In this document: piece by piece, positions 8,501 through 47,500 of the stretch
Position numbering within the stretch: the stretch's first letter is position 1
Layout: every line of letters starts with the position of its first letter
Origin: Cheilinus undulatus
Taxonomy: Eukaryota; Chordata; Actinopteri; Labriformes; Labridae
Reading direction: 5' to 3'
Length of the DNA stretch: 64,000 nucleotides
NCBI RefSeq assembly: GCF_018320785.1
Contig: NC_054886.1
Span: 34,408,110 to 34,472,109 of the forward strand
Made by a program: the position numbers and the translations under genes
The notes under the pieces: generated by a model
The model's input: the letters and a program-made list of their open reading frames with translations, nothing else
Databases searched by the model: none
What the model was told of the DNA's origin: nothing

Positions 8501-11500
8501 GTTAAAGTGGCAAAAACGGGCATATTAAGTGGTAAAACGGGATTAAAAAGTGGCTGAAATGCTGTTAAAGTAGCAAAATTAGGTGGTAATTTGTTTATGT
8601 GGGATGAAAATTAACCTGGCAAGAATTAGATTGTGAAATGTGACGTAAAAAGTGGTAAAAGGGGTCAATAGTGGCAATAATGGGTCAACAGAGCAGATAA
8701 TAGGCAGAGAGTGGCAAGATTTGGTTTACAAGTGGCAAAAAAGGCAGAAAAAGTAGTGGAAAGGGTTTTAATCTGACAAAAAAAATGGATTTTTAATAAT
8801 GTAACTTAAGCTTAAGCTGCAATTTTCAAATCGCAGAAGGTTCAACGTTTCTTTGAGTGAAAATAGCAGTGTTAAACTTTCTTTTTTGCAGCAGGGATGT
8901 TATGCATGACATATCATGCAATCATTCAGGTGCCATTTTTTTTAGAGAAGACTACAAAAAATCCTACCTTCTTCATTTTTGTACTTTTTTCTCATTAAAT
9001 AAAAGAATGACAAAAACCCTTCAATGCAACAGTTCAAATCCAATTTGCAATACAAGTCAGAATCATCAGAATTAGATACTTTTAAAGAATTGTTCAGTCA
9101 ATAAAAGAAACTTGAGGAATAATCGCATATCAAATTGCAATTGCAATACTGGGGGGGGGTCGCAATTAAATTCTTTTTCAAAATCATTCAGCCCTACTTT
9201 TTAAGTGGCAAAAATGTGTTAAAGTTGGCAAAATTGGTGGGAGAAAAGTGATGACAACGGGTTGAAATCTGGCAGAATTGGTGTAAAGTGGCAACAGTGT
9301 AAATTAAAGGAATATTCCTAGTTTTTTAAGGTATCTGGAGACCCCCTCTCAGTGTTTTGCAACTTCAACGCTGAGAACCACTGAATTAAAGTAACAGGAA
9401 GGTCTAGTGTCTCTGTCAGAGTCCCCTCTGTAATGTCAGATATTTAAAATTATTATCACAGCCTGTTGGTGACAAAAACAGCAATTTAAGTTTACAATCT
9501 TTGACTAATTAGAGACTCTGGTGAAGATATTATATCCTGTTTCACTGCTGCCAGAGCCATCTCCATACAGAACTCCTTTAGATCTAAAACTACACAGCTA
9601 ATAGCGTCTGACACAAAAATAAGGCTAATCAGTGCCCTACATTCCTGTTCTTCCTGACAAACCCGACTATAGACTGTTAATAACTGCAGTGGCGTTTTTA
9701 AAACTGTTACCTGTTGGTGTACATGACGAAGGCGTAGCCGCGGTTCTCTCCACTGAACTCCATCATCAGTCTGAATTCATAGATCTTCCCGGCTTTGTCA
9801 AACAAGGGCACCAGCTCGTCCTCGTACATGTCTCTGGGAATCTTCCCCACAAACACCTCGCAGCCCCTCGGGGGGGGCGGACCCTCCCAACCTGAGAAAA
9901 CAAAGTCGAGATCAGGCAAAAAACAGAGAAGAATGCCTCAAAGAGTCGACAAACTCTGACCAATAACCACTGCTGATATAATAATCACCCTTTAAGGCTG
10001 CATCTCTGGGTTTTAAATCGTTGAGATGCAAAACACGCAAGTTCCCCCACCAGAGGGCTCCCAATCAAACCCAAACCAATGAAACCCATACACATAATAA
10101 TAACTAACTACATTTAAAGTCAGTCATAGACAGACCTGGTGGGGGTCCTCCAAACTTCCTCTGTCCGTTCTCCTGCACCATTTCATAGCCCGTCTTCTCT
10201 ATCAGGTCCAGCAGAGCCTTCTCTTTAGCACATGATGCCTTGAACTCATCCTCACCCTGAAGACAACTCACTGTCCCAGAGTCTTCATCCATGTCTGCCC
10301 CCCACTCCCTGTCCACGTCTGTGCCCCACTCTTCATCCCTGTCTGTCCCACAAACAGAATCAGTTTATTCAAGTTAATGAAGGCTTAAGGATGAAGGTGA
10401 TGTAATAGTACAACTTAGAAAAGGGTTGATGCACAGATGAACTGGTTTAACCTCGATATCAGTCCTGTTGACTAACATCGGACAGCTGCAAATGAACAGA
10501 TATTAGAGGCTTTTCAAGGATCTGCAGCAGCGCTACTCAACCCGAGAGCCAAATAGTTGAAAAAAACCTTTGCAGGAGCCACAATCTAAGTGGTGAAAAG
10601 TGGCAAAAAGGTTAAAGTGCAGTAAAAATAAGTTAAAAGGTGGCAAAAATGGCCAAAAAGCTGTAAAAAGTGGCAAAACTTGGAAAAAAGGGGCATTTAA
10701 TGGCAAAAGGTAGCTTATATCCACAAAAACTGGCAGAAAATGGAAAAAAGGGGGAAAATAGCAAATAACAAAAAGAAGGGCAAAAGTGGAAACAAGAAGT
10801 GGCAAAAATTGGTAAAAAGCATCAAAAATGGGTGAAAAAGGGCAAACATGGGGAGAGAAAGCAGGAAAAACAGGCTGAGAAAGGAAAAAATGGGCGAGAA
10901 GTGACCCAAAAAAATGAGTGACAGGAGCAAAAATAGTCAAATGTAGCACAAAAACAGTTAAAAGTGACTAAAACAGGCAAAAAAGCAACATAAAGGTGGC
11001 AAAAATGGGCAAACCGCTGTAAAAAGGTGGCAAAACTTGGAAAAAGGTGGCATTTAATGGCAAAAGTTAGCCTTTAATGGTAAAAAGTGGTGGAAAATTG
11101 CAATAGCAGTAGAAATAAATAGCAAAAAGCAGGACAAAATGTCAAAAATGGGCAAGAAGAAATGGCAAAACAGGCTAAAAGCAGCAAAAATTCAATTAAA
11201 AGTGGCTAAATAAAGCCTACTGGGAAACAAACTGATTAATGTGACTTGCAATGGATAATTTCTGAGGTCAAAGTTTCCCTTTTTTAAGGTTTTCTGGGGA
11301 ATAGTATTTCAAATTTAGGCACAAAAGATCCACACACTGAGTTTCACTGCTCTACAGGAAGCCTGTATGAAGCCCAACCCTATCACATTATTATTCATAT
11401 TTTTAGACTAACATAGGCTTAGTTCTGAAATAAATTACTAGGATTTAAATGCAAAGATCAACTGTCCAAATTCAAGCATACATACAGCCACTTTAATGTT

Positions 11501-13609: not shown

Positions 13610-16600
13610 CTGAAAAAAGAGGAGAAACGTTTAGCAGTGACTGACCACTAGGTGGAGTCGTTACGCTGTGATTTCATATAAATGTCTTCTAGATGGTGAT
13701 ATTCATTCTCTCTCTACTTTTGCCCCCTCCTCATCATCATTCTGTCCATCCGTAGATCTAAAACCACTGAAACTAAGCCTCATTTTTACTTTTCTTTAAT
13801 GATTAAACTCCACTATGATCACGCACACTCAGACATCTGCAGCAGGAGAACAAAAGGAGCTTTTATGAACTTCACTGTTGCTGCAACCAGGAGGCTTAAC
13901 CCAATTAAAGAGATCTGAGATCGGCTTTAATCTGCAGCAGGATTGAAACACGTCACAGCTCGGCGCCGGCATGTGCTGCTGCAGATCTGGTCGGTTTTAT
14001 ATGCAGCCTTATGGCTGCCACACCTGACCGGTGTCATCTGGAGGTCAGAAGGTATGGGGCTAGCTTAAGCTGAATGTGTTTGTGTAAAGTGGTGCCACAC
14101 TGAAAATAATCCTTTAAATGATGTTGAAACTGCAGTTATATAACCTCGGCATGAGTTCAGGTGTTGTACGAGTCTTTTATTTTAAACTTGAGCGTGTGAA
14201 GTAAGGAAGCATGAAGATTCTCCTGAGATCTTTGGGTTGTTTGGATTTCATCAAACCAAAGTCCACTTTGAAATCCAGCATTTTGGGCTCTGGTTTAGCT
14301 TGGTTGGTAGAGCGGGCGCCAGTATGCAGAGGCTAAGGTCTGTGACGCACTGGTCCCGGGACAGATCCTGATTCTGGCACTGTTTGGTGCAAACCTGCCC
14401 CCTCTTGTTTCAGCCGCTTAATTTCCCTTTAATGAGTAAAATCTTCAAGAGAAGAGGCTCAATCTGACCAAGACCAATGCCCTGAACAAACATGCTCCTG
14501 TACTAGATCGCATCTACAACCCTACCTCCAAAAAAGCTGGGACACTGTGTAAAATGTAAACAAAAATAATGATTTTCTAATCTCATAAACTCATATTTTA
14601 TTCCTGCAACACATGAGAGCACGAGTGCCCAGTGTGGGCGACTGGGCCAGGTCCTTAACACCAGGAATACCAGTCCCAGTTGTAAGTCGCTTTGGATAAA
14701 AGCATCTGCTAAATGACACAGTGAAATTGTCTGTAAAGTGAGGAGACCAGTTGTCCCATTCTTGTCTCATGTAGGGTTCTAGCTGCCAAACAGTCCTGGG
14801 TCTTCTTTGCTGGAGTGTTCCTTTTTTAGAGTACTCAAAATGAAAGGTCTGGACTGCAGGCAGGCCACTTCAGGACTCGGACTCTTCTTTTTATTCCACT
14901 ATTTACCATTTTTGCCACTTTTTTAGCCGGTTGAAACAAATTTTAGTTACTTTTGACCATTTATTTAAACAGTTTTGATACTATTACTATTTTTTGGTAC
15001 TTTTTGTCCATTGTTGCTACTGTTCTTTTCCACTTTTTCCACTTACAACCCCTTTTTGCAATGTCTTTTTGCCTGTTTTTGCCACTTTAAACCAACTTTT
15101 GCCAAGTCCTACCCACTTTTGGCTTATTTTTGCCAGCTTTGATAAATTTTTGTTGTTTAAAAAACATTTTTTGCCACATTGTTTCAACTTTTTTCCTTTT
15201 TGCCACCTTTTTTTAGCCACTTGAGACCGATTTTGTTACTTTTGACCATTTATTGAAACATTTTTGCCACTTTTAACATGTTCAGTACTTTTCACCCATT
15301 ATTGCTACTGTTCTTTGAAACTATTTGATGCCCATTCACCACTTTAATTCAATTTTTGGTGCTTTAGAAACACAATTGTCCATTTTCCAATTTAACACCA
15401 CCTGAAACCAATTTTTACCATTTATTCAAACTTTTTTCACTGTTTACTTTTTTTTTTGCCCATTGTTGCCGCTGTTCTTTGTCACTCTTTTGCCACCTTT
15501 GCCAGGTTTAACTCACTTTTGCCACTTCTTTGCCACTTTTTACCCAATTTTCATCTTTTTCACAATTGTTCAACTCTTTTCCCTAAAAGTTGCTTCAGTT
15601 TCTTCTCCATCCTGACATTTCTGCATTAGCTGTGAAGTCTGACATCACTCTCCTAACCATTTATTTCAGCCTGCCCTGCCACATTGTTAACATTTCCAAT
15701 AAAAGGTCATTCTGTTTTATGAAAACGGACCGTGATGTGGATCCTGCTCAGCTTCTTCTTTGGTCTCAGCTTCAACATCTGATAAGTTGTTTCAGCTCTA
15801 TTTTGAATAAAAAATGGGTTTTTAAGATTTGACAATCATCAGCTACAGTTTTAATTTTTATTTTACCCAGTGCCCCAACTTTTTTTGGAAACTGGGGCTG
15901 AATAGTCTTTGTGAGAATGCTTTTTTTCTTCAGTTTCGTAGGTTTCAAAACTGCCCAAGCTCTTCCTGTTTCTAGATTCAGATGTTTTATTGTCACATGT
16001 GCGTCTGGTTTCAGAGATGTCTGTCGTCACCTGGAAGGACTGGAAGCTGATGACGGTGCCGTAGCGACAGTACATGACGTAGTGTTCACAGTTGTACCAC
16101 AGCAGGCTGTAGTCCACGTGACCCTGCAGCTTCTCCGCCCGCATCGCCACCTCCTCGCCCTGCAGCGGCGGCCGGCTGCACACCTGGGGAGGACAGCAAG
16201 TCAGTGATGTTCTGCTGAGAAGCTCATCCACCTGGACCTGTCAATACTCAGTCACACAGAGGCTGCACTATGGCCCTGTGCTGTGGTATAAAACCCAGAG
16301 AAGTCAAGCTTTGTCTGAGCTGTCTGCAGAGACAACGAGCCAACAATCTGATGATTTATACTCTTCCACTGATGTATTTCATCAATGGATCCAGTTGGCT
16401 AAGATCAGTCTTTAGTCACAGTTAGTTGAATCCAGCTGGAACAGATGGTTGAATAAACAACAAGAACCATCAGAGTCTGCATGCTTTTAAATCTCTAACC
16501 TGGTCTTTGGTGTTGATGAGGACCTTAGCTCCGTAGGCGAAGTCCTCCAGTGAGTCCACCCTGATGCTGCCAACCTGAGAGAGGACAGACGTCAGTTAGA

Positions 16601-18164
16601 CTCAATTATTCCAACTTAAATCCTTTGTTTGTAAGTGTTGTTGCTGGTCTGGGTTTTAGTGGAGCTCTGATACCTTGGCCAGTACTCCCAGTATGAGCCG
16701 AGTGTTGGTGACCATCTGTTTAATCTGAGTCTGATCGCTGGAGAAGATCGGCAGGATGTCCGGGATGAAATGAGCGACTCTGGAGAGGGAGAGAGAAAAA
16801 AGAGAGCAGTGAGGGATGAAGAGAAGGAATGGACAAAAGAGGAAGGACAGGGAAAGAAAAGGAGAAAGAAATGGACAAGAAAGAAGATAAAGACCTGGAG
16901 AGACAAAACCAGAAAAAGACCAGTTATTCATGAGATCATGAGAGAAAGAACAGGCGAGAGAAAATGAAAGAAAAGAACAAACAGAGTAGAGGAGCATAAA
17001 GGACAAATAAAGGCAAGACTCAAGAAAGATGTTCAAGAAAAGCAGTCAAAAATGAGGAGGGTGTGTTAAAGGAAAAGAGGAAATTATAGGGCAAAACAAA
17101 ATAAATGTTCAAATTACAAGAAGCTGGAAAGAATGGCCAAAAACTAGAAAGAAGAAAGCGAACAATAAAAGTAAAAGTTGGTCCAATATGGGAAAAGGGT
17201 GAAGTAAAGGACAAATTAGACAAGTCAGAGACATTAAACAGACAGGGAAAGGATATAAAAAGAAAGAAAAGTCAGGAAGAGAACAAACAGTTACAAACAG
17301 GACACATGAAAAGACAAGAAAGGGACAAAAAAATACAAGAAAGGGACAAAAGACATGAAATTATCTAAAAGACAAGTAAGGGACGAGAAGACAAATTAGG
17401 ATCATGAAGACAAGTAAGGGAAATTAAAAGACAAGTAAGGGACAAAAAGACAAGTAAGGGACAAAAAGACAAGTACGGGACAAAAAGACAAGTACGGGAC
17501 AGAACAAGACAACCAAAAGACATGAGTAAGTGACTCAAAAAGTAAGAGACATGATAAAAAAACAAACAAGTCAGGGACATCAACAGTAGGTAAGACAAAG
17601 ATTGAAAATGGACAGAAAGGGGACAAAGGTGAGGAGCAAAGGCGGTATAACAAAGACGAAAATGAAGGAAAGACAGAAAAGATGGGGCAAAATGAAAATG
17701 ATAGGAACAGAAGGCCAACATTAAACAGAGAGAAGGAATGGAGAAGAAGAATAGACATGGACAAGTGAAGAACCCTAACCAGAGACACTGAGGGAGAAAG
17801 AACAACAGAGACAGACAGGGTTAGGACATTAGTGAAAGAAACCCTAACCCTAACCCTGAAAGAAACAAGAAAGAGTTGGATAAAGACAGAGAGAAAGGCC
17901 AAAATGATAGACAATAAACAGAGAAGAAACACGGAAGACAGAAGAGGAATAACAAGACCTGACTAAGACTCACCTTCCTCCCCCCAAGTAGATCCCAAAG
18001 TGGGTGAACAAGGTCCGAGGGACCTCCAGCAGGTCTCCCCTCTTCAGGGTCACCTCACCTTTCTTCTCTCCGCTCTGTCCGTCTCCCCCATCCTCCCCCT
18101 CCTCCCTCTTCTCGAGTCTTGGCGTGGAGATGAAGAGCAGAGCCAGCAGCTGAAGGGGGAACAT
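13454..18164 (-). CDS. LRAT-family acyltransferase, five-coding-exon paralogue
   Basis: Five exons join in phase to 226 aa: 18164-17974, 16779-16674, 16574-16500, 16183-16031 and 13609-13454. A short hydrophobic N-terminus ([12 protein letters not shown]) is followed by a charged linker and then the LRAT core [10 protein letters not shown]. The catalytic residues of the family are present: His55 in THFGIYLG, His67 in VAHFIPDI and Cys156 in NCEH. The His-Cys spacing of 101 residues equals that of the neighbouring lrat. The last exon encodes a hydrophobic C-terminal membrane anchor ending VWMAA. LRAT proteins transfer a fatty acyl group from phosphatidylcholine to retinol at the ER membrane; whether this paralogue uses retinol is not known. 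The final intron position matches that of lrat, but three extra introns interrupt the core. An AATAAA signal (minus strand, 13360-13365) lies about 90 bases after the stop. It may correspond to a tandem lratb-type duplicate of other teleosts. Confidence 0.9.
14297..14420 (+). repeat. tRNA-derived SINE (degenerate head)
   Basis: The stretch TTAGCTTGGTTGGTAGAGCG, then GGCGCCAGTATGCAGAGGCT, has A-box character. It is followed by a CCCGGGACAGATCCTG stretch in place of a B box. It sits in the last intron of the LRAT paralogue, and the decayed B box argues against a working tRNA gene. Confidence 0.6.
14519..15898. mobile_element. degenerate mariner/Tc1-like element with internal repeats
   Basis: The left end TCCAAAAAAGCTGGGACACT and right end CAGTGCCCCAACTTTTTTTG, then GAAACTGGGG, are inverted. 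Inside are a SINE-like tail (TAAGTCGCTTTGGATAAAAG at 14682-14701) and a TTTTTGCCAC array (14891-15560) that ends in TTCTTCTCCATCCTGACATT. No transposase frame survives. Confidence 0.55.
16031..16183 (-). CDS. LRAT paralogue coding exon 4 (catalytic Cys)
   Basis: Acceptor TCCCCAG, 153 bases, donor GTGACGA. It encodes [13 protein letters not shown] and [19 protein letters not shown] with the catalytic Cys156. Confidence 0.94.
16500..16574 (-). CDS. LRAT paralogue coding exon 3
   Basis: Acceptor TCTCTCAG, 75 bases (25 codons, phase 0 at both ends), donor GTTAGAG. It encodes [19 protein letters not shown], the conserved DFAYGA segment of LRAT. Confidence 0.92.
16674..16779 (-). CDS. LRAT paralogue coding exon 2
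   Basis: Acceptor TCTCCAG, 106 bases, donor GTATCAG. It encodes [12 protein letters not shown] and [15 protein letters not shown], including the second catalytic His67. Confidence 0.92.
16780..17973. repeat. purine-rich intron 1 of the LRAT paralogue with 19-bp tandem repeats
   Basis: About 1.2 kb is strongly G/A-rich on the plus strand, so the transcript is pyrimidine-rich. At 17406-17505 the 19-bp unit GACAAGTAAGGGACAAAAA repeats four to five times. The long frames on either strand are consequences of the composition. Confidence 0.75.
17974..18164 (-). CDS. LRAT paralogue coding exon 1
   Basis: Start codon at 18164-18162, then 191 bases, then donor GTGAGTC. It encodes the hydrophobic N-terminus, a Glu/Gly/Lys-rich linker and the core up to HFGIYLGGG (first catalytic His55). 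Confidence 0.88.
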
Positions 18165-18218
18165 GGTGAGAGGACGAGGTGGCGGCGTTGGTTCAGGTGC
18201 TTTTATTCTCCAAACGAG

Positions 18219-18240
18219 GCGGGGGGGGGGGGGGGGGGGT
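18219..18240 (+). repeat. poly-G tract upstream of LRAT paralogue
   Basis: An uninterrupted G run of about 19 bases lies about 55 bases upstream of the start codon, so poly-C in the sense strand. It may be unreliable in sequence length. Confidence 0.7.
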
Positions 18241-18519
18241 GTTTAGACTGAGGCTGATCCAATGAGAAACTACACTACTGGATAAATTAAAGGAACAGGC
18301 TGATTGGAACTGAGTTATAATAGTTTGATGGATTATACAAAATTAAGTGACCTAAACAATCTAATCCATGGTTGAAGCATCGTCATCTAGGGAGAAAGAC
18401 TGGGTAATACTGGGAGGGGCTTAGTAGAGGAGACTGCAAGACTGTAAACAATGGTGGAAGGAGAAGAGATTAGCATGGATGCAGTGTTACTACTATCAAG
18501 CCAATGTAGCTAAGTTAGC

Positions 18520-19790
18520 TTTCAGAATGTGAGCTTTAGCAAACATAGCTAAAGCTACTGTAGTTACATAATATAGATAACATAGCTATGTCACTCACGT
18601 AGCTAATTGTTGCTTTGTTAGTACAGACATCTACAAGCTTTTAAATTTTTGACTTGACTTATGTTAGATATGTAGTTTCATTATCTACGTATCTTAAACA
18701 GCTTACACAGCTAGTAGAGCTACATTCACTATGAAGCTCCCTTATCTATGTTATCTACGTAGCTTACACAGCTTGCTGAGCTCCATTAGCCATGTAGCAC
18801 TATTATCAAAATCATCTACATAGCTTACACAGGTTTCTGAGCTTGATTAGCAATGTAGCTCCATCTACAGTATCTATGTAGCTTACACAGCTAACTGAGG
18901 GCTTTTAGCTCTGAAGCTCTATTATCACCATTATCTATGTAGCTTATGCAGCTTTCGAAGGTCCGTTAGCTATGTAGCGCCATTATCTCCATTATCTACA
19001 TAACTTACACGACAAACTGAACTCCGTTAGCTATGAAGCTACATTATGTACTATGTGAATGGAGCTTAAGCAGCTTTTCAATTGAGCTCTATCAGCTACA
19101 AGCTCTATTATCAACATTATCTACAAAGCTTACACAGGTAATTGAGCTCTGTCATTATCTGCATAGCTTTTGCAGCTAATCAAGCTCTGTTTGCCATGCA
19201 ACTCCATTATCTATGTAGCTTACAAAGCTAATATAGCTCTGCTAGCCATGTAGCTCCATTATCAGTGTAGCTTACAAAGCTAATCGAGCTCTGTTAGCCA
19301 TGTAGCTCCATTATCTATGTAGCTTACAAAGCTAATCCAGCTCTGTTAGCCATGTAGCTCCATTATCTATGTAGCTTACAAAGCTAATATAGCTCTGCTA
19401 GCCATGTAGCTCCATTATCAGTGTAGCTTACAAAGCTAATCCAGCTCTGTTAGCCATGTAGCTCCATTATCTATGTAGCTTACAAAGCTAATTGAGCTCT
19501 GCTAGCCATGTAGCTCCATTATCAGTGTAGCTTACAAAGCTAATCCAGCTCTGTTAGCCATGTAGCTCCATTATCTATGTAGCTTACAAAGCTAATATAG
19601 CTCTGCTAGCCATGTAGCTCCATTATCAGTGTAGCTTACAAAGCTAATCCAGCTCTGTTAGCCATGCAACTCCATTATCTATGTAGCTTACAAAGCTAAT
19701 ATAGCTCTGCTAGCCATGTAGCTCCATTATCAGTGTAGCTTACAAAGCTAATTGAGCTCTGTTGGCTATGTAGCTCAGTTTTCATAAAGG
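18520..19790. repeat. 52-bp AGCT-rich satellite array
   Basis: From about 19200 to 19780, 52-bp units (GTAGCTTACAAAGCTAAT, AGCTCTG, TAGCCATGTAGCTCCATTAT) repeat about eleven times. Older, more divergent copies reach back to about 18520. CTATG-type and CAGTG-type units mostly alternate, giving a 104-bp dimer. Each unit carries several AGCT sites. Confidence 0.92.
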
Positions 19791-20920: not shown

Positions 20921-22483
20921 CAGTCGCTAGAAGAAGTATGTGAACCCTTTGAGATTTCTTGGATTTCTGCATAAATTGGTCATCAAATGTGTTCTGATCT
21001 TCATCTAATTCACAACAATAGACAAACACAGTCTGCTTAAACTAATACTGCACAAAAATGATATGTTTTCATGTTTTTATTGAACAAAACATGTAAACAT
21101 TCACAGTGCAGGGTGGAAAAAGTATGTGAACCCCTAGGCTAATGACTGGTTGACCCTCCTTTGGCAGCAATAACCTCAACCAAACGTTCTTTACAAAACC
21201 GTTTCAGTTCAGCAATGTTCTTGGGATGTCTGGTGTGCATCGCTCTCTTGAGGTCATGCCACAGCATCTCAATGGAGTTGAGGTCAGGACTCTGACTGGG
21301 CCACTCCAGAAGGCGTATTTTCTTCTGTTGAAGCCATTCTGTTGTTGATTTACTTCTATGCTTTGGGTCGTTGTCTTGTTGCATCACCCATCCTCTGTTG
21401 AGCTTCAGTTGGTGAACAGATGGTCTTAAGTTTTCCTGTAAAATGTCTTGATAAACTTGGGAATTCATTTTTCCATCAATGACAGCGATGCGTCCAGGCC
21501 CTGAGGCAGCAAAGCAGCCCCAAACCATGATGGCCCCTCCACCATATTTCACAGTTGGGATGAGGTTTTGATGTTGGTGTGCTGTGCCTTTTTTCTCCAC
21601 ACATAGCGTTGTGTGTTCCTTCCAAACAACTCAGTTTTGGTTTCATCTATGGACAGAATATTTTGCCAGTAGTGCTGTGGAACATCCAGGTGCTCTTTTG
21701 TAAACTTCAAACCTGCAGCAATGTGTTTTTTGGACAGCAGTGGCTTCCTCCGTGGTGTCCTCCCATGAACTCCATTCTTGTTTAATGTTTTACTTATTGT
21801 AGATTTGTCAACACAAATGTTAGCATGTGCCAGAGATTTCTGTAAGTCTTTAGCTGAGACTCTAGGAGTCTTCTTCACCTCATTGAGCATTCTGCGCTGT
21901 GCTCTTGCAGTCATCTTTACAGGACGACCACGCCTAGGGAGAGTAGCAACAGTGCTGAACCTTCTCCATTTGTAGTCAGTCTGTCTTACTGTGGACACAT
22001 GAACATCAAGGCTTTTAGAGATACTAATGTAATCTTTTCCAGCTTCATGCAAGTCAACAGTTCTTGATCGTAGGTCTTCTGAGAGCTCTTTTGTGCCAGG
22101 CATGGTTCACATCAGGCAATGCTTCTTGAGAACAGCAAATTCAAAACTGGTGTGTGTTTTTTATAGGGCAGGGCAGCTTTAACCAACACATCCAATCTCA
22201 TCACATTGATTGGACTCCAGGTTGGCTGACTCCTGGCTCCAATTAGCTCTTGGAGAAGTCATTAGCCTAGGGGTTCACATACTTTTTCCACCCTGCACTG
22301 TGAATGTTTACATGTTTTGTTCAATAAAAACATGAAAACATATCATTTTTTGTGCAGTATTAGTTTAAGCAGACTGTGTTTGTCTATTGTTGTGACTTAG
22401 ATGAAGATCAGAACACATTTGATGACCAATTTATGCAGAAATCCAAGAAATCTCAAAGGGTTGACATACTTTTTCTAGCGACT
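20921..22483 (-). mobile_element. Tc1-like DNA transposon, nearly full length
   Basis: Inverted repeats of about 227 bp (20921-21147 and 22257-22483) differ at only a handful of positions and begin CAGTCGCTAGAA (first base altered on the right). They enclose one minus-strand transposase region. The TA target cannot be assigned because both flanks are TA microsatellite. It lies about 1.5 kb from the last lrat exon. Confidence 0.93.
21139..22103 (-). pseudogene. Tc1-like transposase, one frameshift
   Basis: The frame from 22103 begins [20 protein letters not shown]. It covers the paired helix-turn-helix DNA-binding region and the first catalytic Asp (SIDETK). Near 21590 it shifts into a second frame that continues to 21139. 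That frame holds DNDPKH (second Asp) and [11 protein letters not shown] (Glu), so all three residues of the DD34E triad are present. The break lies beside a run of T/A bases (GCCTTTTTTCTCC on plus), so a sequencing indel is possible. Apart from it no stop is seen, and the total length is near the usual 320-340 aa. Confidence 0.9.
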
Positions 22484-22500
22484 ATATACATATATATATT

Positions 22501-24026: not shown

Positions 24027-24179
24027 CTAACTGGCCATCCACAGCGTGAAGGGGACCAGGAAGGTGGGCAGGGCCGTGCTGAAGGATATCCCCAAACACG
24101 CCATGGACAGGAGTCCCAGCAGCGCTGTGAGGGGGACGCTACGCTGGTCCCGGATTAGGGACTTCAGCCACTCACAGAA
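24027..24179 (-). CDS. lrat: lrat coding exon 2 (C-terminal membrane anchor)
   Basis: Acceptor GTCTTCCAG, 50 codons and TAG. It encodes [15 protein letters not shown], a hydrophobic helix, and VPFTLWMAS at the end, matching the conserved LRAT C-terminus (IIRDQRS and FFLWMAG in human). Confidence 0.95.
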   Translation of the reverse strand, partial: FCEWLKSLIRDQRSVPLTALLGLLSMACLGISFSTALPTFLVPFTLWMAS

Positions 24180-27100
24180 CTGGAAGACGAGAAATAACAT
24201 TAATAACACTCAAAAATAAATGAAAATATTTGATTTATCTTGTGTGGAGAGGAAGTTTGGATTGAGTGCATTACAACACAAGAACAACTGATGTAAACAG
24301 AAAATATCCTCAAATCTGAAACTACTTTAATGGCAAACACAAAAAACAAGAACATTCTAAAATTATTTGGGGTCCTTAAAACTAAAGAAGCTTTAGTCTA
24401 TAAAGGAGGAGGCTGGGGTGGAGGAGGTGAAGCTTTATGTTATAAAGGAGGACGCTGGGGTGGAGGAGGTGAAGCTCTAGTCTATAAAGGAGGACGCTGG
24501 GGTGGAGGAGGTGAAGCTCTAGTCTATAAAGTAAGAGGCTGGGGTGGAGGAGGTGAAGCTTTATGTTATAAAGGAGGAGGCTGGGGTGGAGGAGGTGAAG
24601 CTTTCGTCTATAAAGGAGGACGCTGGGGTGGAGGAGGTGAAGCGTTGGTCTATAAAGGAGGAGGCTGGGGTGGAGGAGGTGAAGCTTTAGTCTATAAAGG
24701 AGGAGGCTGGGGTGGAGGAGGTGAAGCTTTGGTCTATAAAGGAGGAGGCTGGGGTGGAGGAGGTGAAGCTTTAGTCTACAAAGGAGGAGGCTGGGGTGGA
24801 GGAGGTGAAGCCTTAGGCTATAAAGGAGGAGGCTGGGGTGGAGGAGGTGAAGCTTTAGTCTATAAAGGAGGAGGCTGGGGTGGAGGAGGTGAAGCTTTGG
24901 TCTATAAAGGAGGAGGCTGGGGTGGAGGAGCTGAAGCTTTGGTCTATAAAGGAGGAGGCTGGGGTGGAGGAGGTGAAGCTTTAGTCAGTAAAGGAGGAGG
25001 CTGGGGTGGAGGAGGTGACGCTTTAGTCTTTAAAGGAGGAGGCTGGGGTGGAGGAGGTGACGCTTTGGTCTTTAAAGGAGGAGGCTGGGGTGGAGGAGGT
25101 AAAGCTTTATGCTCTAAAGGAGATCTAGGGTGGTTGTTTCTTGTCATATTGTGTCATCACTGTGACTGGTGGTGGAATTTTAACACTGTTATTTGAAGGC
25201 TTTTCTTTGAGCACAAAAACAGGAAACACTTTGATTGTCAGTCATTTGACAGACAGTAAATCTGCGACAAAATCTACAAACATTTTGACCCAGAAGTCGA
25301 TGATTTACTGTTACACGCCTGTGTCATTAGCGTCTTTTTTGCATTGCATTTCCAATTGGTAGAAAATCAAGAGAAGACAAGCACATTCTTATAACAGTGC
25401 AGGAAACAAGCTGAATGAATCCTTTAATCGGAGCTTCCTGGTCTGTGCATTTAGACTCGTTGCTCTCTGTAATGGCTCTAGGTTTTGTGTGCAGCACAGT
25501 CCTGTCACTAAAGCCCTCCTTAACGGTTCTTTACATTGATGTGGCGAGCTAAAGTTAACTCCTCCCATGGCGACGACCCTGCCGCTAGAGCTGAAGTCCA
25601 TGGTCCCTGCAGAAAAGGACCTCATTCCTCAAACGTTCCAAATCTTCCCCCCTCCCTCTGAGCGACCTTCTAGTAAAAAGATGAAGAATATAATTGGCCT
25701 GTTGTTTATTTTACCATGAGGCCCTCCGGGGCCCCTGAGGGGGCCCACGTGCCCACAAACCCTCGGCACCCCACCCTTTAATGAGGCTGTAGGAAGCAGA
25801 CTCAGCTCCCAGGCTGCTGCAGGTCAGATGTTTAGGTTAGCAATTACAAGAAGTGAAACTGGATCAGTCTGACTGTTGGAGGAGGGTCAGACGAAGCCCT
25901 GAGACGACCCACAACCAGACCCTTTATTTACCACGTTTACTACAACAACCAGGATGTTTGGGATGTTTTCTTGAGACTTTTTGAGTCTTTATCCTGGGAT
26001 AACAACAATTTTTCTAGTGATCAGTGATCCTTTTTTTCAGTCTTGAGAGGATGATTGAAGTTGACCTACATCAGTGGGTTCCAACCTGGGGTCTGGGCAC
26101 CCCTGGGGGGGGGGGTAACGAATGATCTCAGGGGGCGTGCAAGACCCTGTCTGCTCTGATGTTGTCAAAGTTACAGCTACATACTGTATATATTTTTAAA
26201 AACCCATGGTTAGAATCATGACATATAAGGGCCAACCAAAAAGCTGACAAAATGAAGAGAATCCATTTATTTTCTTGTAGAAAATTCACATTTTTAGAAA
26301 AGAAAATTGCGATTATAAAGTCGAATCAAACTCAGAATTTCAGTCTCAAAATCATGATTTACAACATTGTAAAGTACAAAAATATAGGTGCGCAAACTGA
26401 AAACTGTGGTTGGATTTTTGACTTTATAGTCTCTAAAATTCTACGTTTTGGTTCACGTACACTTAACAACTTTTAAAGTCTTTTTTTTTCACAAACTGAA
26501 CATTTTTTTAAACTTTAGAAATTTGATTTTTTTGATCATCAGATCATACTTATTTTTTTTTCTACAATAGCGCTAGTACACTTTAGTAATACTGGATAGT
26601 TTATACATGGATCTTTGTCAACGACAAGTGCATGTAGGCCGGTTATGTTCGGATTTTGCCAAATACAACAATTCAAAGTAACGATTGATTTTTCCAAGTG
26701 GGTCCTGGGGGTCTTAGCTTTCCTCAGATATGAGTGGTGGTGGTGGGGGTGGGAGAGAAAAAGAGGTTGGAAACCAGTGGCTTATATTATGAGAAAACCA
26801 ACCACAAGGTGTGGCACCTAGTCATGCAGTCTCCATGGAGACAGAAGAGGTCAGAGACATCCAGAGTGGTACTGTGAGGGATGCCACCTTTGCAATAAGA
26901 TGGTTGGTGAAACTTCATCCCTGCTGGATATTCCTCAGCCGACTGTTAGTGATACTATTAGAAAGTGGAAGAGTTCAGGAACAACAGCAACTCAGCCATG
27001 AAGTGGAAGACCGCATAAAATAACAAATCCACATCAATAACCGCTTAAGTGATGGTGGGTGAAACTCTCCAACTGATTCCTGAGCCAGGCCGTCTGGTCC

Positions 27101-30100
27101 AACATCAGTGCCTGACCTCATAAATGCTCTACATCAGTGTTACTCAACCCAGCTCAACCAAAGAGCCAAATTGTTGAAAAAAATCTATCACAAGAGCCAC
27201 AACTTTAATGGTGAAAAGTGACTAAAATGGGCAAAAAAGCCGTAAAAAGGTGGGAAAATGGGGTAATAGTGGCATTTAATAGCAAAAGGCAGCTGAAATT
27301 GGTGAAAAATTGCAAAGAAGCAGGATAAAAGTGGTTAAAACCTACGAAAAAGGGCAAATATGGGATAAAAGTGGCAAAAAAATGGTCAAAAAGTGACTAG
27401 AAGAAGTGGTAAAAATATGCTAAAAGCAGCAGAAATAGATTTGAAGTGGCAAAACATGGGAGAAAGGGGGTAAAACAGGCATACAATGGTAAAAAGTGGC
27501 AAAAATTGAGTTACAGGTAGTCAAAAAGCAGCAAAAAATATGTGAAAAGTGACTTAAATGGGCAAAAAAGCTGTAGAAGGTGGGAAAATGGTAAAAAAAA
27601 AAGTGGCATTTAATGGTAAAAGGCAGTTTAAATGGGTGAAAAATTGCAAAGAAGCAGGATAAAAGTGGAAAATCTGATGAAAAGGGGCAAAAAGTGGCAA
27701 AAAATTGTCAAAAAGTGGCTAGAAGAAGTGTTAAAAATGGGCTAAGAGCAGCAGAAATGGATTTAAAGTGGTAAAAAAATATTACAACAAAGGACAAAAA
27801 ATTGCAAATAAGGGCAATGGAAACATACAGGGAGAAAATAAAGGTCAACAATTAAGTGTGACCATTAAAACCTGCTGTATACGTGAGGGAGCCACGCTGA
27901 GTATCACTGAGCTAGAGTTTGCCCAGACTGGTGTCTCCAAACCCCCATACCTTTTCACTAGAGTAAGAAGTCTGGCCAGCACTGGATGCCTTCTAAAAGT
28001 CCTGATCAGAAGTCTTCCCTGATTTTCCACATCATAAAACCAGACAGCAGCTGTGAGTCTCGTGATGTTGGGTTCATAGTGATGGTCGTATAAAGAATCT
28101 TTTCACTCTGATGCTCAGAGAAGGATTGTGGGTTTTTGTAGTCATTACCAGCTAAACTTCTCTCACAGGAATCACTGATGACCTGAACATATGAGCCGCC
28201 GCCCTCCTTCATCATCATCATCCTCCTCTCTCCGTCCCGACTCTGACTCTTGCTGCTGCTTGCTCTCAATGTGCCGTTTGTTCTCCGAGAAGTGACCCAG
28301 ATTTTCCCCTCGTTTAAAAACAGGCTCACCTCCACACTGAGGAGGAGGAGGAGGAGGAGGAGGAAGGGCTGAGAAAAAACATGCTTTCTAATCTGGTTAA
28401 CCACATGAAGAATGATGGTTGATACAGAGGCATCAGAGATCCACTTCACTTTAATTTCACGGTCCTATTTTGGTTAAAGTTATTTTTATTCCAGCTTTTT
28501 AGTGTGACTTCGAGCATTTTCCATCCATCTTTAGCCTGCAGCCACAAATAAAAGTTCCTGGTGATGTTGATCTATTGACTTACAACCTTAAATCTCAGAA
28601 ATGAGCAAATCTTTCAATTATCAATGGACATAAAACTGGTAAACTAATAAAATGAAACACAGTCACAGCTAAAATCTGGAGTTCTTGGAGCTTCAATGCT
28701 ATACACTTCTATGCACGAGTATGCCTTTATAGACTACACCTCCTCCACCCAGCCTCCTCCTTTATAACAAAAAGCTTCACCTCCTCCACCCCAGCCTCCT
28801 CCTTTATAACATAAAGCTTCACCTCCTCCACCCAGCCTCCTCCTTTATAACATAAAGCTTCACCTCCTCCACCCCAGCCTCCTCCTTTATAACATAAAGC
28901 TTCACCTCCTCCACCCCAGCCTCCTCCTTTATAACATAAAGCTTCACCTCCTCCACCCCAGCCTCCTCCTTTATAACATAAAGCTTCACCTCCTCCACCC
29001 CAGCCTCCTCCTTTATAACATAAATCTTCACCTCCTCCACCCCAGCCTCTTCCTTTATAGACTGAAGCTTCACCTCCTCCACCCAGCCTCCTCCTTTATA
29101 ACATAAAGCTTCAGCTCCTCCACCCCAGCCTCTTCCTTTATAGACTAAAGCTTCACCTCCTCCACCCAAGCCTCCTCCTTTATAACATAAATCTTCACCT
29201 CCTCCACCCAGCGTCCTCCTTTATAACAAAAAGCTTCACCTCCTCCACCCCAGCCTCCTCCTTTATAACCTAAAGCTTCACCTCCTCCACCCCAGCCTCC
29301 TCCTTTATAGACTAAAGCTTCACCTCCTCCACCCCAGCCTCCTCCTTTAGAGACTAAAGCTTCACCTCCTCCACCCCAGCCTCCTCCTTTATAGACTAAA
29401 GCTTCACCTCCTCCACCCCAGCCTCCTCCTTTATAGACTAAAGCTTCACCTCCTCCACCCCAGCCTCCTCCTTTATAGCATGCTGTATAAAATCTTAATT
29501 TCTCGTTAATCTACACTCAGAGCGCCATCCCCCATCTAAATGCATGAGTGTTTGACCAGTAGCATTGGTGCTAGCATTCTGGCTAACAGTCCTTGTTTGG
29601 GAGCTAAAAAGTGTGTCACGCTCTTACTGAGTTCTGAGGTTCAAATCATCTATTGGTGCCACTTTTTTAACCCATTTCACCACTACTTCAGCTATTTTAG
29701 CCACTTTAATCAACATTTGCTGTTTTGAGGCCATAATTAGACTATCACAGATTTTTGCTTCTTTCTGCTCTAATCTGTCTCTTTTTATACCTTTTTCTAC
29801 CACATTTCACCAATTTTGTCCCTTATTTCTTTCATTAATAATCCATCTTTACTGTTTTTTTACATCATCTTAACAGTTCTAACTCAATATTTGCCACCTT
29901 TCACCAATTTTGCCTCTTCTTTTGCCAGTATTAACCCATTTCTGATACTTTTACATTGTTTTGAGACTTCTACACAGTTTTTGCTCTTTTTGCCACTTTC
30001 ACTTGTATTTGAAGTGTTTTTGCCCTGTTTTGACTCTTTTAACTCTTTTCACAATTGTTCATTTTCTTTCAGACAAGTTCTCTCAGTTTCTTCTACTTTA

Positions 30101-31593
30101 TTTTCTGGTGTCCTCGCATCTTTAGCTGTGGAGTCTGACATTGTTTACATCAGTGTGTCTATCTACACTGCTAACATTAGCAGTGACAAGCTACATTTTA
30201 CTAAAACATGAACAAATTAAATGTATTTATGTATTTAGAGTGGTGATTATTATCATATTATTATTAATATCAAATATGGCTATGGCAGCTTAACTTTACT
30301 TTGGACCATAATCTGAGGACCCCCATGGCCCCAGGTAGACCGGGCCCCTGAGAACCCCCTCCTGCCCCCTTTATGATCAGCGTCACGTGAATCAGTCTAA
30401 CATCAGATAACCAGATAAGTGGACCGATCAGACTTCAGATAACCAGATAAGAGGACTGATCAGACATCAGATAACCAGATAAGTGGACCGATCAGACTTC
30501 AGATAACCAGATAAGTGGACTGATCAGACATCAGATAACCAGATAAGTGGACCGATCAGACTTCAGATAACCAGATAAGAGGACCGATCAGACTTCAGAT
30601 AACCAGATAAGTGGACTGATCAGACTTCAGATAACCAGATAAGTGGACCGATCAGACTTCAGATAACCAGATAAGTGGACCGATCAGACTTCAGATAACC
30701 AGATAAGAGGACCGATCAGACTTCAGATAACCAGATAAGTGGACTGATCAGACTTCAGATAACCAGATAAGTGGACCGATCAGACTTCAGATAACCAGAT
30801 AAGTGGACCGATCAGACTTCAGATAACCAGATAAGAGGACCGATCAGACTTCAGATAACCAGATAAGAGGACCGATCAGACTTCAGATAACCAGATAAGA
30901 GGACCGATCAGACTTCAGATAACCAGATAAGAGGACTGATCAGACAGTCTGTGTCTGTTGTGATCAGACTGCTCTACCTGCACGTGCATCACGTGCAGCA
31001 CTCACCTGCTCCGTCTGCAGACTCTGGGCCGTCCCGTAGCGGCAGTAGGTGACGAAGTGCTCGCAGTTGTTCCACAGCAGGCTGTAGGCCACGGAGCCCA
31101 GCAGCTTCTCCGCCCTCTGCGCCACCTCCTCTCCCTGCAGCGGGCCACGGAGCACCGCCCGGTCCATGTGGTTCAGCAGGATCCCGGCTCCGTACGCGAA
31201 GTCCTCCACGGAGTCCGTGCGGATGCTCGCGCGCTTGAAGACGACCCCGAGCAGCAGGCGCGTGTTGGTGACCATCCTCTGGATCTGTCTGCCGTCTGCG
31301 GTCAGAGCCGGGAGGATGTCCGGGATCAGGTGGGCCACCCGGTCCTCCCCCAGGTAGATCCCGAAGTGGGTGAACAGAGTCCGGGGGACCTCCAGAAGGT
31401 CCCCGCGCTGGAACCGCGGACAGGACCCGGATCCGGCTCCAGGTGCGGGCAGAGGAGGAGAGTCGTCCCGGTCGCAGCGCCTCGTGAGCGGAGATTCTGC
31501 GCGCGCTGCGCCCAGAGGAGACAGCAGACTGGAGAGCTTAATGTGCGCGAGGAGGAAGAGCTTCTCCAGGAGGAAGATGAGGGTGTCCAACAT
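24027..31593 (-). CDS. lrat: lrat, lecithin retinol acyltransferase
   Basis: Two coding exons, 31593-31006 and 24179-24027, join in phase 0 to 246 aa, close to the roughly 230 aa of mammalian LRAT. The N-terminus ([15 protein letters not shown]) resembles the human N-terminal hydrophobic segment. A Pro/Arg-rich linker is longer than usual. The core carries [10 protein letters not shown], His76 (THFGIYLG), His88 (VAHLIPDI) and Cys177 ([13 protein letters not shown]); the spacings of 12 and 101 match human His60/His72/Cys161. The C-terminal anchor follows IRDQRS and ends LWMAS. LRAT makes retinyl esters from retinol and phosphatidylcholine at the ER, supporting vitamin A storage and the visual cycle. 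Exon 1 is very GC-rich. The 6.8-kb intron contains three large minisatellites. The nearest AATAAA on this strand downstream is at 23463-23458. This is the more canonical of the two LRAT genes here; the assignment to a named zebrafish lrata/lratb copy is not made. Confidence 0.95.
24330..25196 (+). repeat. 42-bp G-rich minisatellite (array 1), open in one frame
   Basis: About 17 units of 42 bp between 24389 and 25130 contain GGAGGAGGCTGGGGTGGAGG on the plus strand. Because 42 is a multiple of three, one frame stays open for 288 codons, reading repeats of [14 protein letters not shown]. It lies inside the lrat intron, antisense to lrat. No promoter, splice or homology evidence makes it a gene. 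Confidence 0.92.
25197..26071. other. lrat intron segment
   Basis: Unique-looking sequence between repeats. It includes a GC-rich patch at 25715-25775 (GGCCCTCCGGGGCCCCTGAG). No gene recognised. Confidence 0.4.
26072..26779 (+). mobile_element. hAT-type non-autonomous element
   Basis: Starts CAGTGGGTTCCAACCTGGGG and ends GGTTGGAAACCAGTG. The flanks ACCTACAT and GCTTATAT match 5/8, all differences being transitions. It shares sequence with the MITE at 7880. A short low-quality frame inside is not a gene. Confidence 0.7.
26800..27134. repeat. degenerate Tc1/mariner-like fragment, continued after 27909
   Basis: Phrases such as GACATCCAGAGTGGTACTGT and CCAACATCAGTGCCTGACCT resemble Tc1/mariner transposase DNA that I recall from fish repeats. 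The fragment is interrupted by the hAT element at 27135. Many stops are present. Confidence 0.4.
27135..27909 (+). mobile_element. hAT-type non-autonomous element
   Basis: Termini CAGTGTTACTCAACCC and TGAGTATCACTG are inverted. The interior holds two copies of a block of about 350 bp of GTGGCAAAAATGGG-type units. The flanking 8-bp sequences (CTCTACAT, AGCTAGAG) agree only partly. Confidence 0.78.
28030..28728. other. lrat intron segment with (GAG)n
   Basis: Contains a GAGGAGGAG run at 28339-28364. Otherwise no recognised feature. Confidence 0.45.
28729..29481 (-). repeat. 42-bp minisatellite (array 2), inverted relative to array 1
   Basis: About 18 units of the same 42-bp motif, here with CCTCCACCCCAGCCTCCTCC on the plus strand. 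Several units are 41 bp because one C is missing, so the frame is broken, unlike array 1. It lies in the lrat intron in the orientation that places the G-rich strand in the pre-mRNA. Confidence 0.93.
29640..30185. repeat. TTTTTGCCAC-type element fragment
   Basis: A degenerate GCCACTTT array ends with TCTCAGTTTCTTCTACTTTA, then TAGCTGTGGAGTCTGACAT. The same distal sequence is found at 15595-15640 and, in part, at 36440-36500, so this is a separate family from the CAGTG-ended elements. Confidence 0.6.
30403..30950. repeat. 32-bp minisatellite with two AGATAA motifs per unit
   Basis: About 17 units of 32 bp (CAGATAACCAGATAAG, TGGACCGATCAGACTT) with few differences (TGGAC/AGGAC, CCGAT/CTGAT, ACTTC/ACATC). 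Each unit has two AGATAA sequences fitting the GATA-factor consensus WGATAR. The array ends about 55 bases from the lrat exon 1 splice donor, inside the intron. Confidence 0.95.
31006..31593 (-). CDS. lrat: lrat coding exon 1 (whole catalytic core)
   Basis: The start codon is at 31593-31591; 196 codons run to the donor CAG/GTGAGTG. All three catalytic residues (His76, His88, Cys177) are in this one exon, as in mammals. The Met was chosen because [12 protein letters not shown] aligns with the known LRAT N-terminus. Confidence 0.95.
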
Positions 31594-44521: not shown

Positions 44522-47500
44522 CTGAAAACACAGAAAAAGACTCAGAAATAAAACGTCTAAAAACCTCTCACTCCTCTGAGAAAGAAAACCACATCTCCAC
44601 CATCGTGACTGAATTTACACGTTTGGTGTTGTTAGAGTTTTATTGGAGCGCGTTGCCACATTTGTGTTTCTTTGATGAGCGGAGGATTCCTGTGAGGCAG
44701 TAAAAACTTTACAGGAGTGTCTGAACAAAGACTGAAGAGGAGGAAGAGGTGGAAAAGAAGAGTGTTAAAAAAGGCTAACGACTGGTTCCTGGAGTCACCA
44801 CCATGATGGAGAGTGATGAGGCTCTAACGACACTAAAATCCATCTGCTTAATCCCTGCTGATGTTTATGTTTTCAGGAGAACATGTGAGTTAAATCTGCC
44901 TTGTTTGCACACTTCTGACTCGGGTTTGAAGTCACATCCAAACCTACAAACAAACAGGAGGAAGAAGGAAAAATAAACAGCTTAGCAGAGCTGGGCTCGA
45001 GTGTTTTCATCATTTTCTAAAAAATCAGGAAGCTAGCCCAGCAGTATTAACATTTCACCGTTAAGTGTTACTGTCTGCGGCAACAACACGGGGATGAAAT
45101 GGGAAGGGAGTGACGAGGTGATGAAAGAGAGGCGACAGAAAGAGGAAGGAGAAGGGTGAAAAGGTCCCAGAGTTAGGAAAGAGGAGAAAGTCAGAGCTGG
45201 GTGGGGGTGTGGATGTTCTCTGATTTGGCCTACTTTCACCCTTAAGACAGAGTCTTTCAGGATGAAACTGCATCTCAGTTCTCAACTTCTCTCAACCTTA
45301 GGCGATACTGTGTGATTGTGAGCACATGTTACCTGGGGGTCGCTGCGTAGGGAGGCCACCCCTCCCCCTCCTAGTGAATTCTTTAGGACGAAGTTAAGGC
45401 CATGGATCCCTGGGAGTGTATACCTACAACCAGCAAAAACACAAACAAAAATACTTTCAGAAATGCTAATGTAAAGATTGGGAGGGGATTTTTCAACCTA
45501 CGCCTGTGGGGGGCTTCCAGGGCAGCTTAGTGCTCTGTCCAACACAGACAGAGCAAACTCAATTCTTGGGAAACACCTTTGGGGACTGCTGAATAACCAT
45601 CTTACATTGATATTTACCTCCTACAGCTGTAAAATGTTCCTAACAATCTAATATTAGTGATATGTTTCCTTCCCTTTATGTCGCTGTGGCTCAGAGTCCT
45701 TTCTGAAGCCTTGTGAAAATATTTAAAGTGGAGTTGAAGTTTTGGTGGCCCTAAAGTATCTTTTTAGGGCTGTGGATCCCGTGGAGATTAGAGCTAAAAA
45801 CACAGACATAAAAATTGCTATCATGAAGACTGGGGGCAGATATTTCCACCACAGCACATCTCTGGGGGGCTTCCAGGGCAGCTTAGAGGTCAGTCCAACA
45901 CAGATTGAGCAAACTGTGAGCTGAAATTCTAGGGAAACACCTTTTGGTCTATCTGAAACTGATATTTACCTCCTAAAGCTGTGAAATGTCCCTACAGGTC
46001 TAATATTTGAGTTGTGTTTCTCTCTCTTGAGGATGTGTGTTTTTTTTGTAAACTGTGTGAAACATTTAATGGTGGCCTTTAAGTTTTTTTTTAAGGCCCT
46101 GGATCCCTCGGAGTGTGTCTAAAAAAAGAAAAAACCAACCAAACAAACAAACAAAAACCAAACAAAACTGCTAAAATAGAGACTGGGAGTAGATTTTTCC
46201 ACCGAGGCATTAACTGTTGAGAGCTTTCAGGGCAGCTTAGAGGTCAGTCCAACACAGATTGAGCAAACTGTGAGCTGAAATTCTAGGGAAACACCTTTTG
46301 GTCTATCTGAAACTGATATTTACCTCCTAAAGCTGTGAAATGTCCCTACAGGTCTAATATTTGAGTTGTGTTTCTCTCTCTTGAGGATGTGTGTTTTTTT
46401 TGTAAACTGTGTGAAACATTTAATGGTGGCCTTTAAGTTTTTTTTTAAGGCCCTGGATCCCTCGGAGTGTGTCTAAAAAAAGAAAAAACCAACCAAACAA
46501 ACAAACAAAAACCAAACAAAACTGCTAAAATAGAGACTGGGAGTAGATTTTTCCACCGAGGCATTAACTGTTGGGAGCTTTCAGGGCAGCTTAGAGGTCA
46601 GTCCAACACAGATGGAGCAAACTGTGAGCCTAAGTCCTAGAAAAGACCTTTAGGGACTGAAAAATAACTACTTAAACTTATATTTACATCCAAAGCTGCA
46701 ACATGTTCCTAAAATTAGGGCTGTGTTTTTTTTTTAGGATGCCGCAGTTCAACGTGTTGAAAGTCTTCTCTGTAAACCTTGTGAAAATTTTTTAATGGTG
46801 GAGTTAAATTTTTTGGTGGCCTTTAGGGTTTTTTAAAAGGCTATGGATTCCGTGGAGAGTATCTACAAAGAGCAAAAAAAAAAAAAACATAAAGACTGGG
46901 AGTGGATTGTTCCACCACTGTACATCTTTGGGGGGCGTCCAGGGCAGCCTAGGGCTGTGTTCAAACTGTGAGCCTAAACCCTAAGGAAGCCCTCTGGGGA
47001 CTTAAAAATAATCTTGAACTTGAATCTTGAACTGATATCTACCCCCTAGAGATGTGAAATGTTCGGGCAAATCTAATATTAGTGATGTGTTTCTTTCACT
47101 TTGGGGTTCTGTGGTTCAAAGTGTTAAAAGCCTTTTCTTTAAACCATGTAAAAACATTTAATGATGAACTTTAAGTTTTTGGTGGCCTTAAAGTTTGTTT
47201 TTAAAGGCCGTGGACCCCAGGGAGAGTATCTCCAAAGAGCATAAACACACAATAAAAAAAAAAAAAAAAAAAAATGCACTAGGAGTGAATTCTTTCACCA
47301 CAGCAACACCTTTGGGGGCTTCCAGTGGTGGTTTAGGGGGCCTGTGGGCCTAAATCCTAGGGAAACATTTTTTGGGGACTGAAAAACATCTTTTAAATAT
47401 GTAAAAACATTCAGTGGTGGAGTTTAAGTTTTTGGTGGCCCTTAGCTGTAGATCGAGAGGAGCATTTACAAACAGCGTTGATTTTTCCACCACCTTCGGG

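Follow-up and report, generated by a model that had tools for sequence, protein, structure and literature searches.

The window analysed here is a stretch of 64,000 nucleotides from the genome of Cheilinus undulatus (C22:34408110-34472109), which contains the gene lrat on its minus strand and, within the lrat intron, two inverted arrays of a 42-bp minisatellite, A1 and A2. The coordinates of these and other features are collected in Table 1. The two lrat exons were joined in phase into a protein of 246 aa, with a donor GT whose first intron base is 31005 and an acceptor AG whose last intron base is 24180, and the PF04970 match belonged to the reading frame containing the first coding exon. The original prediction had placed two inverted 42-bp arrays facing each other inside the lrat intron. 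This placement was borne out by the exon joining and the Pfam match, and the limits given by Tandem Repeats Finder were at most 8 bp off the earlier ones, with a gap of 3,614 bp between the arrays.

Table 1: Features of the lrat locus and of the related arrays (window positions, unless a contig is named).
Feature	Position	Strand	Remarks
lrat first coding exon, ATG to donor	31006..31593	-	Pfam LRAT PF04970, E 1.1e-38
lrat intron, 6,826 nt	24180..31005	-	GT-AG, phase 0
lrat last coding exon, acceptor to stop	24027..24179	-	in-phase exon joining
Array A1	24387..25122	+	Tandem Repeats Finder: period 42, 17.5 copies, 93% matches
Array A2	28737..29481	-	Tandem Repeats Finder: period 42, 17.8 copies, 94% matches
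Spacer between A1 and A2, 3,614 bp	25123..28736	.	predicted RNA hairpin loop
Acceptor-like sites in transcript orientation of A1	24387..25122	-	18 of 53 AGs at or above the true acceptor (6.2-6.7 vs 5.9)
Array-free relative of the interspersed element	8796..9198	-	outside the lrat pair; no recognisable right end
Inverted pair on C17, first array, 34 units (L043 839-2266)	C17:43440138-43441565	+	
Inverted pair on C17, second array, 22 units (L043 4133-5056)	C17:43443432-43444355	-	

Both arrays have the character of a minisatellite, that is, tandem and highly alike units of about 10-100 bp (here 42 bp, with 93-94% matches). When cut into units, A1 gave 17 full 42-bp units and a 10-nt stub, while A2 gave 17 full units and one shortened unit of 35 nt. 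A search for a 23-bp core, with up to 3 mismatches allowed, found it 17 times on the plus strand in A1 and 14 times on the minus strand in A2; these 31 sites were the total for the window, and 0 were expected from 100 shuffles. Only 2 unit types were identical between the two arrays, and four units of A2 had a 1-bp deletion (one G lost) that was absent from all units of A1. Since A1 is G-rich on the plus strand, the lrat pre-mRNA contains A2 first, as a G-rich array, and A1 last, as a C-rich one. A2 lies 1,524 nt from the lrat donor and the near end of A1 about 207 nt from the acceptor. By eye, the spacer contains other degenerate repeats.

Three candidates for the identity of the repeat were tried and rejected. 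A coding origin of the unit, within a stop-to-stop frame of 299 aa over A1, was discarded because this frame had no Pfam match, the 1-bp deletions of A2 shift it and the array is intronic. As to a known structured RNA, the sole Rfam match at gathering score in the window was UnaL2, outside the arrays. A viral source was set aside after one scan of viral_contigs, limited to exact matches, in which the 26-bp core was absent. Other repeats were also observed in the same intron: a 32-bp array of 17 copies, 96% pure (30403-30945), ends about 60 bp from the lrat donor, and degenerate AAAAGTGGCAAAAATGGG-type repeats were seen by eye in opposite orientation at 27191-27850 and 29640-30040. The latter, similar to repeats elsewhere in the window, are a second source of complementary stretches within the lrat intron.

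The search was extended to the whole genome (1,173,462,691 bp, with 24 large contigs comprising 99.7% of the assembly). With A1 as query, 142 matches of 76 to 100% identity, most of 90 to 94%, were obtained from the 40 loci that were scored out of 1,626 first-look candidates. An exact 36-bp core occurred 1,859 times genome-wide (900 + 959), and the reversed-pattern control gave 0. The occurrences were gathered near chromosome ends: 39 of the 40 best-scoring loci, that of A1 included, 22 of 24 clusters of the 36-mer among the matches listed (from C1, C2 and a portion of C3) and, for the unit end ATGT, 9 of 13 clusters were located within 3 Mb of an end, where the share expected is 12.3% of the 24 large contigs. 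The lrat arrays themselves are 2.6 Mb away from the C22 end. Judging by these matches, A1 and A2 are members of a dispersed family of G-rich 42-bp minisatellites, concentrated near chromosome ends. The implied view that the structure is particular to lrat finds no support, given this genome-wide family of 1,859 core copies and a further inverted pair on C17.

Of the 40 loci, 20 were extracted, and 21 arrays other than those of lrat were considered in them; a one-unit match in L023 was dropped and two flanks were cut by locus ends. Flank homology with another array, near the array edge, was detected on the left in 12 of the 21, on the right in 14 and on at least one side in 17, mostly with 70 to 90% identity. 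The outer ends of the interspersed element thus delimited, TAGGGCTG.. and ..CAGCCCTA, were observed directly, and were also read as TAGGGCTGAACGATT.. and ..AATTGCCCAGCCCTA. Both ends were recognised in just 1 of 23 arrays, L016, where they are bordered by a target duplication, ATTTCCCT/ATTTCCAT, matching at 7 of 8 positions. Elements of the hAT superfamily make target duplications of 8 bp. By eye, one end only was visible in L011, L022, L023, L024 and L026. Several copies, also by eye, have the motif AAGCTTT directly adjoining the first unit on its left side and a second AAGCTTT closing the last unit, which suggests that the array could have been born by slippage between two such motifs spaced at 42 bp. 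At lrat, the 700 bp to the left of each array contained no TAGGGCTG-like end with 1 mismatch allowed; one CAGCCCTA-like site was located about 380 bp right of A2 and none right of A1. Three other arrays of C22 have the ATGT unit end, two of them with both element flanks and one with the right flank only, so that arrays with both flanks, with one and with none coexist on C22.

The kinship between A1 and A2 was addressed through their unit variants. Genome-wide there were 3 occurrences of a linked two-variant unit (10A + ATGT end), one of them in A1 and two in A2. The ATGT end alone occurred 32 times, 17 of them on C22, and 7 of these 17 in the lrat arrays; 5 of its 13 clusters are on C22, both lrat arrays among them. 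When the common variants were weighted by rarity, the A1-A2 pair was third of the 231 pairs formed by 22 arrays, and the two were mutual nearest neighbours. Two candidates failed here. Variant 13C was tried as a private marker, being in 0 of 20 sampled arrays, but it has 25 genome-wide occurrences on twelve contigs. A colinear inverted duplication of the whole arrays was also rejected, because the TGT-ended units are at the outer end of A1 but towards the inner end of A2, and the near flanks do not match. Taking into account that the linked unit is exclusive to A1 and A2 and that neither has element flanks, we infer that one was probably copied from the other, or converted by it, locally. Copying or conversion of this kind is the likely relation from the unit variants, favoured although not proven.

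Other arrays of the family were also found close together. The tally comprises those pairs that surfaced and is not a survey. The arrays of the C17 pair, near the chromosome end, are 1.9 kb apart, and by eye each has the left flank of the element. On C21 two array loci (696401 and 706772) are inverted and 9 kb apart, and pairs in the same orientation were found on C1 (1157272/1163308) and in L022. The inverted layout of the lrat arrays is hence not unique in the genome.

The RNA that such a layout would yield was modelled by folding the intron. In the minimum free energy (MFE) structure, 668 of the 736 nt of A1 were paired with A2, in 35 helix runs with 16 G-U pairs and 310 adenosines, the longest perfect stretch being 83 nt. 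The duplex energy was -1354.5 kcal/mol, compared with -56.7 and -168.4 for the arrays folded singly, or -530.6 kcal/mol for the G-rich array alone when G-quadruplexes were allowed; the fold of A2 has 196 quartet guanines and about 24 predicted G-quadruplexes. The MFE of the intron rose from -2714.6 to -1686.0 when pairs were limited to a span of 1,500 nt, and to -1904.0 with the letters of A1 shuffled (one shuffle, in which 322 nt of A2 were still paired to the shuffled A1). The graph distance between donor and acceptor in the MFE structure was 19, a value that had no control and from which no conclusion was drawn. In these models the two arrays of the lrat pre-mRNA are able to join in an imperfect duplex, about 670 bp long and closing a 3.6-kb loop, and the very long imperfect duplex of a G-rich and a C-rich array that had been proposed was thus reproduced in silico. 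The 668 pairs provide, again in silico, the long duplex within one transcript that characterises a substrate of the editing enzyme ADAR. There would also be about 3.6 kb of transcription in which A2 could fold on itself before A1 exists.

Considering these results together, we regard as probable that the lrat arrays are a transposon-associated pair of G-rich subtelomeric minisatellites, probably kin by local copying, which yields incidental double-stranded RNA in the intron, edited and nearly neutral. The family would have arisen, probably, inside a non-autonomous hAT-like DNA transposon (TAGGGCTG../..CAGCCCTA) by slippage between AAGCTTT copies. The transposon would have spread the arrays round the genome, after which the flanks may have decayed while turnover kept the arrays homogeneous. 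The inverted pairing in lrat was probably an accident. The opposite orientation in one intron would give a duplex in the pre-mRNA and, from it, A-to-I editing and little else; as the intron is removed, the pair could be close to neutral. In zebrafish, most repeat families are edited and the palindromic hAT element ANGEL is among the most edited (PMC8096273), and editing sites are enriched in the long-range complementary regions of human genes, the more so where these are stable (PMC8052449).

Several observations weigh against this interpretation and some of them would fit a different origin, in which A1 and A2 entered the intron separately, their likeness is variant recurrence and their opposite orientation is chance. 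The recurrence of 13C on twelve contigs makes single common variants weak evidence of kinship; variant 29C, in 0 of the 20 sampled arrays, is a count that covers the sample and not the genome. The plain profile distance between A1 and A2 (0.052) is unremarkable, 144 of the 231 pairs being closer, and the resemblance among units was slightly higher inside each array than across the two (a value reached by 2 of 2000 permutations, the first unit of A2 being left out). The 10A + ATGT pattern was designed from the lrat units themselves. Independent arrivals are further favoured by the flanks near the array edges, which have no common sequence, and by the other arrays that occur at most 10 kb apart; the restriction of the 10A + ATGT unit to these two arrays and the concentration of the ATGT end on C22 argue in the opposite direction, and we consider separate arrival unlikely. 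An arrival inside the transposon is only putative at lrat, where neither blastn nor a profile search gave an element flank, and four of the 21 other arrays (L013, L017, L018 and L020) have no common flank. The hAT label depends on one copy with a 7/8 duplication. As for the location, the 40 loci are the best matches to A1 and not a random sample, and the matches of 13C include chromosome interiors (C20:18.4 Mb, C19:14.9 Mb), so the concentration at the ends is not absolute. The editing and neutrality steps are ones that we infer. Two more explanations of the paired layout were weighed. Foldback elements consist of inverted tandem arrays flanking a spacer, as is seen here, and A1 and A2 could be the two ends of a single mobile element, about 5.1 kb long, whose terminal inverted repeats are made of tandem units. 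Against it, no direct target duplication was seen by eye outside 24387 and 29481; the arrays in the 20 extracted loci are single or, in L022, a same-orientation pair, most of them with the flanks of another element; and each array of the C17 pair has the left flank of the interspersed element. We find this explanation scarcely credible, with no genome search made for further spacer copies. It is also extremely improbable that assembly produced one array as a spurious duplicate of the other. Tandem arrays are error-prone in assembly, but A1 and A2 differ in unit variants, deletions and flanks, and because of the differences in variants and flanks A2 is not a simple echo of A1.

A role in splicing was considered separately. 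According to this alternative, A1 presents a series of acceptor-like sites shortly before the real acceptor, pairing with A2 hides the series and brings donor and acceptor nearer, and copy number tunes lrat splicing. Within each A1 unit there is an acceptor-like candidate, CACCCCAG. On a generic 3' splice-site matrix, AGs that equal or exceed the real lrat acceptor number 18 of 53 in A1 (Table 1), compared with none of the 113 in A2 and 5 of the 335 found elsewhere in the intron, and the predicted pairing covers 668 of the 736 nt of A1. Human conserved complementary regions tend to be intronic and to obstruct cryptic splice sites, but the enrichment at cryptic sites excepts highly stable structures (PMC8052449). 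Moreover, three of the five high-scoring AGs outside the arrays (9.1, 8.8 and 6.9) beat the best A1 site (6.7), and the repeat family is dispersed, with no sign of selection. We therefore judge a splicing role to be quite improbable. Its boldest form, in which minisatellite copying along the chromosome arm made a self-masking switch whose inverted copy A2 covers the 18 acceptor-like sites of A1, seems very improbable. If it were true, a change of copy number in either array would unmask sites and lower full-length LRAT, and vitamin A storage would be tied to the length of a rapidly mutating repeat. Back-splicing would not be expected, because A1 and A2 share an intron, with no exon recognised in the spacer.

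Elsewhere in the window, a second LRAT-like gene stands in tandem with lrat on the minus strand, its domain in three pieces (15863-16240, 16616-16927 and 17970-18242). The Pfam LRAT domain was matched on two pieces; the remaining one was scanned in another frame, and its third frame is lrat-like by eye. This gene seemingly has more coding introns than lrat, and just upstream of it there are 61- and 52-bp tandem arrays (18700-19776). Pieces of a Tc1/Sleeping Beauty-like transposase were found in two overlapping frames on the minus strand at 21139-22106, with a Pfam match for the 21549-22106 piece only. A neighbouring segment (about 22257-22486) shares 95.7% identity with a sequence close to an array on C7 (L010). 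The UnaL2 LINE 3' element is at 14669-14722 on the plus strand (Rfam RF00436), and a 354-bp unit present 2.1 times with 99% matches (45869-46629) reflects either duplication in the very recent past or an assembly echo.

The preferred interpretation, of an incidental and locally copied pair, places what looked like a peculiarity of one gene within a family, namely a G-rich minisatellite, concentrated near chromosome ends among the loci sampled, that seemingly spread in a transposon and then outlived it. Locally common unit variants would offer a way to trace the copying of arrays along a chromosome arm, inverted pairs included. Intronic inverted pairs predict very long double-stranded RNAs, and the editing of these RNAs and their effect on splicing would be readable from RNA-seq. 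No mention of the 42-bp repeat or of an inverted minisatellite pair in an lrat intron was found in the titles and abstract openings listed, which is no proof of absence, and the literature was not searched by sequence.

By comparison with known systems, complementary AC/GT repeats are said to bridge teleost introns, reportedly the work of Lin et al. in 2016. In that class (AC)n and (GT)n lie close to the two splice sites. A1 and A2 resemble it as complementary repeats in one intron able to bring its ends nearer, but they are not dinucleotides and their distances to the splice sites (1,524 and about 207 nt) place them outside the class. The unit of the human minisatellite CEB1 is reportedly similar in length to the 42-bp unit. 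CEB1 and CEB25 are G-rich subtelomeric minisatellites (PMC2673046, PMC3486850 and PMC5491262). The lrat family is comparable in its G-rich strand, for which G-quadruplexes are predicted, and in the position of its sampled copies, mostly near chromosome ends; it is a large family dispersed over many chromosomes. Minisatellites or satellites borne by miniature inverted-repeat transposable elements (MITEs), such as Xenopus miDNA4 and Xstir and bivalve Pearl (PMC9659126), are alike in that an array in or from a short non-autonomous element with terminal inverted repeats was dispersed and then homogenised; the lrat family differs in being G-rich, sampled near chromosome ends and, in the lrat copies, without element flanks. 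In that source miDNA4 is listed as Tc1-mariner, whereas the element of the lrat family has hAT-like ends. Finally, the lrat pair resembles Alu pairs in man and ANGEL in zebrafish (PMC8096273), where repeats in opposite orientation also give long intramolecular double-stranded RNA; in lrat the editing is a prediction, and the arms are tandem arrays that allow many pairing registers.

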